A DNA stretch of 64,000 nt. Origin: Deltaproteobacteria bacterium. Lineage in GTDB: Bacteria > Myxococcota_A > Polyangia > HGW-17 > SLPX01. The translations under genes and the position numbers were made by a program. Location: assembly GCA_021162935.1 (NCBI GenBank), contig JAGGXR010000084.1, positions 1-64,000 of the forward strand, written 5' to 3'. The notes below the pieces were generated by a model, which worked only from the letters and a program-made list of their open reading frames with translations, was not told where the DNA came from and made no database searches. Shown here piece by piece: positions 42,127 to 62,414 of the stretch (position 1 is its first letter; the number at the start of each line of letters is the position of its first letter).

Positions 42127-42223
42127 CGGAAGCGTACGGGAGTCGAACCCGCCAGACTCGGCAGCTAAGCCTGTCTCAGACGGCTTTGAAGGCCGCGGGG
42201 GACACCGGTCCCCCAACGCTTCC
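42127..42223 (-). tRNA. selC: tRNA-Sec (UCA anticodon, selenocysteine)
   Basis: Read on the minus strand this 97-base gene begins GGAAGCGTTGGGGGACCGG and has the loop CTTCAAA with anticodon TCA (at 42189-42187). The acceptor ends pair (GGAAGCG with CGCTTCC). It has the T-loop GGTTCGACTCC and a long variable arm. These features and the 8/5 or 8-bp acceptor extension match bacterial tRNA-Sec. The discriminator G is at 42127 and the CCA is not encoded. T6 follows directly (42126-42121), a simple termination signal. SerRS, SelA and SelB act on it in the known pathway; they are not in this window. Confidence 0.95.
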
Positions 42224-58849: not shown

Positions 58850-59569
58850 GCCTCAGGAACAGTTTTTTTGCAATGGGGGCTGCTGCTGGAAGAGTTGGCA
58901 GTGGCTGATATCGGTCAAAGTCACGGGCTTGTCCGTCAGGCCCGCCGCCATGGCGGGTGTGCGGTAGGTCTTCCCACCCTAGGCGTCGGCGACGGTCAGT
59001 CCACGGTTGACGCGGCAAGAGTCGCATAGACCAGGTCGGACCGCGGGATCGTATGCGGCTTCGGCGGCCTACCCGCCTTCTATATTTTTTTCCACAAACG
59101 ACCTTTTCTCGTCGAGTTGGACTTCATGCACGTCCACCGCCCGTACGTGCTGCTCATGCCATCGCTTGAAATGTTCGCCCAACCGCCGCGTCAGACGAAT
59201 GACCGTCTCCTCTTGAGCGTGGCAAAGCCGCCCGGTCTGCCCCGCCCCGCATCCGTCGGCCACATGGTGCAGGATATCAAAGGCTTTTTCCTCGTAGATC
59301 CGCAGATTGAACAGCGGCGTCCCCTTGCGCTCCGAGAACTCCTCCCCGCAATCATGGCAGTGCAAGTACCGGGTCGTGCCGCCCCCACACCAGTAGCGAA
59401 TGCTCAGCCCCTTGTTGCCCTCCCCAACGGCAGAAGGACACTCCGGGTTCGGGCACCGAAGCGACGACAACGGTCGGTCTCGAAGCAGCGCCAGACGTTC
59501 GTGATTTGAATCTCTCATCTCATCGGTCTGTCCCATCGCCGGCTCCCTGTCGATCCCCGATCCCAGCAC
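58850..59569 (-). pseudogene. IS1-like transposase remnant
   Basis: The first part (59069-59569) keeps a 166-residue frame with zinc Cys pairs (CPNPECP, CHDCGEEF), FSERKGTPLFNLRIYEEKAFDIL, a helix-turn-helix-like ETVIRLTRRLGEHFKRW and VQLDEKRSFV, matching the N-terminal half of IS1-like transposases. The frame then stops (IEGG stop). Past it, another frame reads YRTPAMAAGLTDKPVTLTD, the family C-terminus, but carries a TAG before it. With the stop and frame change, this is a dead element. I found no terminal inverted repeats or target duplication. Confidence 0.65.
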
Positions 59570-59861: not shown

Positions 59862-61472
59862 ATGAAGAAGTCAGTTTTTCTGGGCCTGGGGGTTCTGTGC
59901 GCAGCTGCTTGTTTCGGCTGCGACGGCATGATCGGGGGTGACTTCGGCGGCGACGGCATGGTCGGGGGTGACTTCGGTGCCGACGGCATGATCGGGCGTG
60001 ACGGTGGCATAGATGCGTGTGAGCCCGGTACGGTCATTTGCGTGGATGGCACTGTCGGAAGCTGTTCTGCGGATGGTGTCGCGGTGCCTGGTGAGCCCTG
60101 TGAGTTCGGCTGCGATGATTCGCAGACAGTGGCCAGGTGCTTCAGTTGTCAGGTGGATGCGCAGTGGTGTGAGGGCGATGATCTGCTGACTTGTGTCAGT
60201 GGCTACGTTTCCGATGCGAGCAGGGAAACGTGTCCTCTGGGCTGTTTGTCTAATGATGGCGCGCATTGTCGGGAGTTGGGTGCACACGCGGTGTTCTCGC
60301 TAGGGGATTTTCTCGCGGATGGCACTTTGGCCTTCAGTCAAGAAATGCAGTTGGGTGCTGGCATCCATACGATCGACACGGACGAGTTCACGATCGATTC
60401 TGTTTCCTGGAGTGATCAGGCGATCGTCATTCAGGGTCAAGACGCCCCTGATGTTGCGGTCTTCGCCTGCGCAAACTTTCATCTCGTCGAGGGAGGAACG
60501 CTGCGGGCCATTGGGAGTCGCCCCCTGGCCATCGTTGCACGCGACACCCTGCAAGTTGACGGGATCATCGACGTCAGTGCACGCCTGACCGAACTCGGTG
60601 TTGGCAAATATGAAGACTGGAGCACGCCTGGACCGGGTGGTTTTTCCGGTGGAGCGCTTGGAGAGTCGGGGCAGGGAGGCTGCGGAGGGCAGCCTGGCGA
60701 AACAACCACCTGGGGATCTGGCAGTGGTGCGGGAGGATTCGGCGGTCCGGGTGGACGCGGGGCCAATCGCACCGAAAGTCCGGCACATCCATACTTCTTT
60801 CCCGGAGGTCCCGGCGGGGGAGTCTGCGGAAACGCCTCTCTGATTCCTCTTATGGGCGGAAGTGGCGGTGGTGGGGGAGAACCCACGAGTCAATCGCCCA
60901 CCGGCGACGCGGTGCACGCATCGTCTGCTGGCGGTGGAGGCGGTGGTGCGGTGTTGTTGGCGGCGGGGGCCACGGTGCAGATTTCTTCTACTGGAGGAGT
61001 CAGCGCTGCCGGTGGCGGCGGCGCTGTATGCGCCAACTCGGGTGGCGCCGGCGGCGGTGCCGGCGGTGGGATTCTCATCGAGGCGCCTTATGTCAGTCTG
61101 GCTGGCTTCGTGGCCGCAAACGGAGGAGGTGGCGCGGAAGGCGACTGCACTTGAGCGAGCGATGATGTTGGCCGGTCTGGCCAACCAGGCAGAAATGACA
61201 GGCAGCAGGCAGCAGGTGCACCCGGTCTCAATTCGATTCCTTCAAGAGGGCCAGGTGGCAATGGTGGGGCTGGAGCGATCGCGGCGGGCGATCAAGGTCC
61301 GGATACCTACACGGACGCCACGGGCGGTGGCGGCGGTGGTGTTGGGCGGATACGGATAAACAGCCTGTCCGAAGGCTTGAGCATCGAAACCTCCGCCATC
61401 ATCAGCCCGAGCGACAATCCCGGGGTTTGCGATGGTCTGTGCTCAACTGGTGAGATAGAGTATCAGGACTAG
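59862..61472 (+). CDS. Gly-rich lipoprotein interrupted by one in-frame UGA (Sec candidate or nonsense)
   Basis: Start ATG at 59862 follows GAGAGGGGGG; lipobox LCAAAC (or FGC). The N-terminal head has three 10-residue repeats (30-bp units at 59922, 59952 and 59982), then a Cys-rich region, a beta region, and a long Gly-rich part. The frame meets TGA at 61152-61154, after 430 codons, and stays open in the same frame for another 105 codons to TAG at 61470-61472. The continuation ends with the usual family tail (GGGGGGVGRIRINSLSEG...). Without the TGA this would be a normal 536-codon gene. A hairpin (61167-61185) follows the TGA at 12 bases. It is either a selenoprotein, a nonsense mutation or a base-call error. 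Confidence 0.7.
59922..60011 (+). repeat. 30-bp tandem repeat at the start of the Gly-rich lipoprotein
   Basis: Units starting at 59922, 59952 and 59982 each begin GACGGCATG and encode DGMIGGDFGG-type decapeptides. The third is diverged at its end (GATCGGGCGTGAC). Confidence 0.8.
61167..61185 (+). promoter_or_regulatory. SECIS-like hairpin downstream of the in-frame UGA
   Basis: GTTGGCC (61167-61173), loop GGTCT (61174-61178), GGCCAAC (61179-61185) form a perfect 7-bp stem and 5-base loop. The loop begins 19 bases after the TGA. Bacterial SECIS elements have an apical loop with G in its first positions a similar distance past UGA; that of E. coli fdhF also presents GGUCU. This is a structural resemblance only. 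Confidence 0.45.
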
Positions 61473-61612
61473 GAGGGCATCATCACGCTGCAGTCGGGAT
61501 GCGTCTTTCTGGGCGCGCTCCATTGCCGAGAAACAGCAACTCAATGCTGACCTCCGCGAACGCCGAGGTCGAGGTGCTCGATGTCGGCTAGAGCGACGTG
61601 CCCGGGGCCGGG

Positions 61613-62031
61613 CTACTTGGCGCGATACTTCGGCGGCAGGTTGGCCTGGGGAACCTACTTGCACAGATCGCGAATCGCAACGAGGGCTTCGTCCTGATGA
61701 TCTGCTGCCCGCGTTTCCAAGTAGAGTTCGAGCGCGCGGCGACCTTGGCAAACGCGGTTACCGGATCGCGCTTGCGCTCGTAGATGACCGCCTCTTTGCG
61801 GAAGAGCTTCGCGGCGGCGCGCATCATTTCCTGGTAGTGGAATAGGCCTACGAGAATTTCGCTGTAGACCACGTCGCAGATCTCCCGCGGAACTCCGAAC
61901 AGATCATAGGTGCTGTCGCACTCGCGTAGAGCGGCGTCCAAGTTGCCGTTATCTCGCAGCTTCAACATGCGGGCCACGGCTTCGACAAACTGCCGAATGA
62001 ACCGCATCACGTAGTCCTGGTGAATCAACAA
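61613..62031 (-). pseudogene. Frameshifted small gene of a DUF6483-like family
   Basis: The start is an unaided TTG at 62031 or ATG at 62010. The protein begins HQDYVMRFIRQFVEAVARMLKLRDNGNLDAAL, close to the opening of a small helical family I recall as DUF6483. Around 61740 the frame must shift by one base: the following residues then read LELYLETRAADHQDEALVAIRDLCK, reach a TAG at 61657-61655, and continue as VPQANLPPKYRAK to another TAG at 61615-61613, which matches the family's C-terminus. One frameshift plus one stop mark it as a pseudogene; sequencing error is possible. It faces the Gly-rich lipoprotein gene. Confidence 0.55.
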
Positions 62032-62414
62032 ACCGCAGCGTAACCACGTTTGGCCGGTTGCCAAGTGACCGAGGTGAAGAGGGGCCTGCACGCGGGCAGC
62101 GGAATCTGGTACGAGCACGTCGATCAAGGAGCGGACGTTCCCGGCCTCGGCGTGTTCGCGATCCAGAGCTTCACAGTCGCCGCTGGCGCAACCTTGATCG
62201 GCTTGTAGGAATTTCACAAGTCCTTTTTCCGATCAAGACAACGCTCTCCGAAGTCCAAACTCGAATGTTACAACAGGCATTGGTTTTTAGTAAGGCCACC
62301 GATTTGGCTGGTTCCTGCGTTGTGGGCCGATGGCCGATCTGGTACTCTCTTTCCTCGTGGGTCAAGCGGGAATGGCTGCGTTGGTCGTTCCGTTGTTCCG
62401 ATCGAGGCGATTTG
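62032..62414. other. Intergenic region upstream of thiE
   Basis: About 380 bases. No convincing gene; I looked for a TPP riboswitch (CTGAGA and ACCTGAT signatures) and see none. A minus-strand frame continues from the DUF6483-like gene to a GTG at 62217 behind AAAAAGGA, which might be a longer version of that gene. Confidence 0.35.

Follow-up and report, generated by a model that had tools for sequence, protein, structure and literature searches.

Most known selenoproteins are enzymes of the thiol-oxidoreductase type that have Cys homologs, and the searches for them rely on pairs of Cys and selenocysteine (Sec). According to the authors of deep-Sep, Cys homologs now seem to exist for every known selenoprotein, and families without them may be filtered out (PMC12013277). 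The published bacterial SECIS element has a loop of the form N1-G-[G/U]-N-N2, with pairing between N1 and N2, on a stem of 4-16 bp at a distance of 16-37 nt from the UGA, and a CxU motif is found in e.g. the UshA-like NF041198, thioredoxin-like Sec.1, ferredoxin-thioredoxin reductase and rhodanese form 3 (PMC13188914).

In the window analyzed here, i.e. the whole 64,000-nt stretch of a myxobacterial contig, the frame at 59862-61472 (+) runs from an ATG at 59862 over a single in-frame TGA (61152-61154) to a TAG at 61470-61472. Between the two stops lie 105 sense codons, with a Gly-rich C-terminal tail (...GGGGGGVGRIRIN..., including GGVGRIRIN) that is the normal one for the family described below; translation thereby confirmed what the first-pass annotation had read from the bare sequence. 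That annotation had also proposed that the UGA inserts Sec in an extracytoplasmic lipoprotein of a new selenoprotein class. Our comparative tests support this, namely the presence of the UGA in 12 genes, covariation in a hairpin behind it, a held-out covariance model, constraint on the downstream codons and the co-occurrence of SelA, SelB, SelD, tRNA-Sec and a Sec-containing SelD (Sec-SelD). We consider it very probable, from sequence comparison, that UGA61152 inserts Sec431 in a putative extracytoplasmic Gly-rich lipoprotein belonging to a new selenoprotein family, although selenium in the protein remains unshown and no selenium, read-through or expression data are available. The features of the locus are collected in Table 1. 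The N-terminus is hydrophobic and its Cys20 is invariant in the alignment, the lipobox being judged by eye only, and the six-Cys module that follows is common to the Sec forms and their non-Sec relatives.

Table 1. Features of the putative Sec-lipoprotein locus, with positions in the window.
Feature	Position	Strand	Basis
tRNA-Sec, anticodon TCA	42127..42223	-	ARAGORN
Putative Sec-lipoprotein gene, 536 residues, Sec431	59862..61472	+	translation; 12-member family with the same UGA
Lipoprotein-type signal peptide (predicted) up to invariant Cys20	59862..59921	+	alignment; lipobox judged by eye
N-terminal Cys-rich module C96, C103, C111, C124, C128, C136	60147..60269	+	column counts
Cys274	60681..60683	+	Cys in 9/9 Sec forms vs 8/70 non-Sec homologs
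Trp284 in window copy	60711..60713	+	Cys in 8/9 Sec forms counted vs 1/66 non-Sec homologs
Cys322	60825..60827	+	Cys in 9/9 Sec forms vs 7/69 non-Sec homologs
Motif Gly-Asp-Cys429-Thr-Sec431 (CxU)	61140..61154	+	GDC[T/S/N]U in 12/12 members
UGA, very probably read as selenocysteine	61152..61154	+	kept in 12 members; Sec machinery present
105 post-UGA codons, Gly-rich tail GGGGG.VGRIRIN	61155..61469	+	purifying selection in most tested pairs; alignment
Putative bacterial SECIS hairpin; stem of 7 bp, loop G-GUC-U with a G-U pair spanning it	61167..61185	+	covariation; held-out covariance model

A six-frame search of the window's own genome found five places, of which the second-best full-length one (G000:C66) is interrupted by a single stop, a TGA that aligns with the window's; the surroundings read GGGGAEGDCT-UGA-ASDDVGRSGQPG in the window and GGGGGGGDCT-UGA-NDNDAGQAGWRG in the second copy. 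By way of relatives, a scan for the pattern in about 85,000 species, a class scan and a class profile search, a family of 12 genes in 9 genomes was gathered, i.e. the window gene and 11 others: L147/L002 (the second copy in the window's genome), L063, L178/L196 (second copy in the L063 genome), L075, L084, L087/L145, L092, L107, L111, L135 and L136 (second copy in the L107 genome). The carriers are metagenome-assembled genomes. One of them, Zod_Metabat.807, holds two Sec copies (L107:2508-3935 and L136:2396-3748), which parallels the two copies in the window genome. The UGA occupies one and the same alignment column in all 12 members, where it closes the motif N-GGGG-xx-G-D-C-[T/S/N]-UGA (GDCN-UGA in L178/L196), and TAA or TAG occurs there in none of them. 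Every member has a long open frame before the UGA and 91-105 open codons after it. The pattern scan returned 85 stretches, and the nine flanked on either side by a long Gly-rich frame all belong to the family. Global reassignment of UGA is ruled out, since several family genes themselves terminate in it; other TGA flags among the inspected homolog lists were terminal stops. In a phylum search (379-genome sample, strict E of 1e-70), no Sec forms were found beyond the two of the window's genome.

Besides the UGA, the family is set apart by its cysteines. Cys274, Cys284 and Cys322 occur almost exclusively in the Sec forms, of which Cys429 is likewise typical. The core of L063, modelled by AlphaFold2 with U read as C (pLDDT 84, pTM 0.87), consists of beta strands separated by irregular, Gly-rich stretches, with helix almost absent, while the model of the window protein reached a pLDDT of 63. 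No significant match was obtained in a fold search against solved structures. The best hit, the likewise glycine-rich tail adhesin gp38 of phage PP01, was weak (E 0.085, TM 0.19 by query length) and is not evidence of homology, and predicted viral Gly-rich and collagen-like proteins matched as repeats only. Judged by the CxU and the distribution of cysteines alone, there is about an even chance that the Cys-x-Sec pair is a redox-active selenenylsulfide at the cell surface. Sec could also be inserted to make, together with Cys429, Cys274, Cys322 and, where kept, Cys284, a site for a soft metal or metalloid instead of a redox catalyst. It is in keeping with such a site that the Sec subfamily is marked by one Sec and as many as four Cys, and that many selenoproteins are tied to metals in a 2026 review (PMC13188914), but the window copy is without Cys284 and L107 has lost Cys274, Cys284 and Cys322 altogether, and both keep the CxU, in L107 as Cys429 and Sec. 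This retention despite Cys loss points to the CxU as the essential part, and the metal site appears unlikely, though it remains a real possibility. A surface redox site remains the most likely function, inferred as it is from the CxU and the accompanying cysteines.

The gene neighborhood has nothing in common across the family, and so gives no functional clue. Genes resembling sulfatases of the formylglycine-generating enzyme (FGE) type directly adjoin two Sec members (L084:2-652 and L136:555-2399), and are absent beside the other members examined. The target of FGE-type enzymes is C-[T/S]-P-x-R, to which the D-C-[T/S]-U motif bears a loose resemblance. In another case, the Sec gene is preceded on its own strand, at a distance of 56 nt, by a gene for a thioredoxin/PDZ-type protein (L111:2763-4100).

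The hairpin reported in the first-pass annotation, with a 7-bp stem and a GGTCT loop, was found as described (GTTGGCC-GGTCT-GGCCAAC): it begins 12 nt after the TGA and its loop lies 19 nt after it. The corresponding hairpin of the second copy, GCCGGCC-AGGCT-GGCTGGC, differs by two compensatory T-A to C-G exchanges and one G-C to G-U change. Nine members, the window and eight others, have a plain hairpin with a perfect or near-perfect stem of about 7 bp (6-8) and a 5-nt loop (GGUCU, AGGCU, AGUUU, AGUCU or GGGCC in the family), in which the stem starts 9-12 nt and the loop 16-19 nt after the UGA and the minimum free energy is -13 to -22 kcal/mol; all nine fit the published SECIS loop pattern and spacing (PMC13188914). 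Among the eight distinct sequences of these nine members, pairing is kept in about 98% (98.4%) of cells and four pairs are altered on both sides, in six cells, while sliding the partner by 1-3 bases lets pairing fall to 6-45%. L084, L107 and L135 are one codon shorter, with a bulged stem, recognized by eye, whose loop lies about 20 nt after the UGA. Their hairpin is invariant, thus offering no evidence of covariation, and fails a strict criterion (stem of at least 6 bp, loop N1-G-[G/T]-N-N2, 16-21 nt after the codon) that was chosen after the hairpins had been seen. This criterion is satisfied at 9 of the 12 aligned UGA sites, as opposed to 43 of 5,761 other codons in the same genes. The cleanest test is a covariance model, a check already suggested in the first-pass annotation, for which training was restricted to seven sequences of other genomes. 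It still placed the window site first in the 5.1-Mb genome held out from it: the two UGA sites scored 41.5 and 39.5 bits, ranking first and second, and the next-best site (G000:C4:184954) a weak 20.2 bits. Rfam gave no match to a SECIS family, only one to a microRNA model by chance.

The machinery for Sec was searched for in whole member-carrying genomes, leaving out those of L084, L107 and L136. SelA and SelD exceeded the curated cut-off in seven of the seven, and a Sec-SelD with a UGA of its own was present in six. SelB was over the cut-off in six as well, compared with 130 of 311 other genomes of the class (p = 0.026); the carrier without such a match, G217, does have SelA and Sec-SelD and is only 86% complete. 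In the window's genome, SelA is encoded on contig C75, SelB on C51, SelD on C82 and Sec-SelD on C124, and the tRNA-Sec that had been placed at 42127 in the window was recovered there by ARAGORN. The two SelD genes of this genome are L204 (G000:C82:26194-27123), which has no stop, and L211 (G000:C124:218-1135), which has the in-frame UGA. UGA can be read by near-cognate tRNAs. Given this, the absence of selenium data and the missing SelB match in G217, the UGA might be taken for a regulated stop or a leaky codon, at which the hairpin stalls ribosomes and Trp or another residue is inserted without any selenium. Loop and spacing nevertheless fit the SelB-type SECIS model, SelA and SelD occur in all seven genomes searched and Sec-SelD in six, and the UGA follows an invariant Asp-Cys-x, a typical redox setting, all of which leaves read-through of this kind very improbable.

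Downstream of the UGA, dN/dS was 0.12-0.36 in seven out of nine pairs (0.12 in L111/L145, 0.24 in L063/L196 and 0.27-0.36 in five more); the other two pairs, which are divergent, gave 0.68 and 0.99. The values are similar to those before the UGA, and the codons after it are mostly under purifying selection. A rival reading is that the TGA is a sequencing error or the mark of a pseudogene, i.e. a GGA (Gly) or TGG changed in one copy above a chance hairpin in GC-rich DNA; the first-pass annotation had reasonably raised a one-base change from GGA and the neighboring pseudogenes as objections. In its favor are the remnant-like flanking frames and the abundance of loose hairpins in so Gly-rich and GC-rich a gene (stems of 7 bp or more at 861 out of 5,761 codons elsewhere in the family genes). 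It fails because 12 genes share the UGA, eleven of them besides the window's in an otherwise open frame and most on separately assembled contigs and in other genomes, and it is also contradicted by the compensatory stem changes, the first rank under the held-out model and the mostly constrained downstream codons, so that it is refuted for the family and scarcely credible overall. The flanking frames (59069-59569 and 61588-62217, minus strand) look like gene remnants and have no Pfam match. Its place amid gene debris and its lack of Cys284 leave it possible that the window copy is in decay, however real the family, and that it has degenerated further than the second copy in its genome.

With Sec insertion at UGA61152 as the preferred reading, SelA, SelD and tRNA-Sec would make Sec-tRNA, and SelB bound to the hairpin (61167-61185) would deliver it at the UGA; the machinery and the hairpin are established by comparison, whereas the event itself is inferred. 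The finished protein would be exported, lipidated at Cys20 and, as modelled, folded as beta strands alternating with poly-glycine stretches, where Cys429 and Sec431 would form a Cys-x-Sec pair ending a Gly-rich strand. Cys274 and Cys322, being typical of the Sec forms, may sit near this pair, which is again an inference. In the absence of selenium, translation would presumably stop at the UGA, giving a product that lacks Sec and the last 105 residues.

Scores on the family profile separate the two groups, the Sec forms reaching 432-563 bits and the best non-Sec homolog 256; a homolog was found at an E of 1e-20 in 124 out of 318 class genomes. The non-Sec relatives are Gly-rich lipoproteins of Polyangia-type myxobacteria (L003 in the window's genome, and L006, L010, L014 and others), which share the N-terminal Cys module, where present, the Gly-rich repeats and the GRIRIN-like tail, but lack DC[T/S/N]U and most of Cys274, Cys284 and Cys322. 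No family member with Cys for Sec (GDCxC) was found in the 318 class genomes, and every match to the pattern DCxC in the class fell in an unrelated frame. The closest approach to a Cys form is the homolog L037 (G036:C123, minus strand), which has GDCC where the motif aligns. The absence of a Cys-to-Sec replacement pattern, counted against Sec in the first-pass annotation, is therefore real. Since the non-Sec relatives lack DC[T/S/N]U as a whole, this absence can be counted as a trait of the family. In a quick tree of 81 homologs the Sec label clusters, with 2 changes versus 11.4 in shuffles; the deep branches are weak, and a single origin of the Sec forms is not ruled out. We lean towards a de novo gain of Sec, together with the Cys-x-Sec pair and the extra cysteines, in a Gly-rich surface lipoprotein scaffold, rather than a replacement of a catalytic Cys of the thioredoxin type. 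If this is true, the family has no Cys counterparts and is invisible to searches for Cys/Sec pairs.

None of the 119 prokaryotic selenoprotein families in the table of the 2026 review matches the new family (PMC13188914). Pfam and NCBIfam gave no selenoprotein or redox family and no informative domain in the 11 members tested at an E of 0.1. The family looks undescribed in the literature searched, although an earlier unnamed listing in a groundwater deep-Sep screen cannot be excluded. Deng et al. 2026 reportedly applied deep-Sep to groundwater genomes, and one family member comes from a groundwater assembly. A conserved UGA and SECIS without a Cys counterpart would show Sec arising in a new structural setting, and the family would extend the myxobacterial selenoproteome and explain genes that are truncated at the UGA by standard reading.

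With SelB/SECIS selenoproteins of the E. coli fdhF type, the family has in common the in-frame UGA, a small guanine-bearing loop 16-20 nt after it, and SelA, SelD and tRNA-Sec, as well as SelB except in one incomplete genome; unlike the usual proteins of this kind, no homolog with Cys for Sec was found, such homologs serving as a criterion in discovery without being a strict part of the definition. From the known CxU selenoproteins it differs by the lack of an NCBIfam match and by a modelled structure of beta strands and Gly-rich loops without thioredoxin-type helices, while it shares with them the Cys situated two residues before Sec (PMC13188914).
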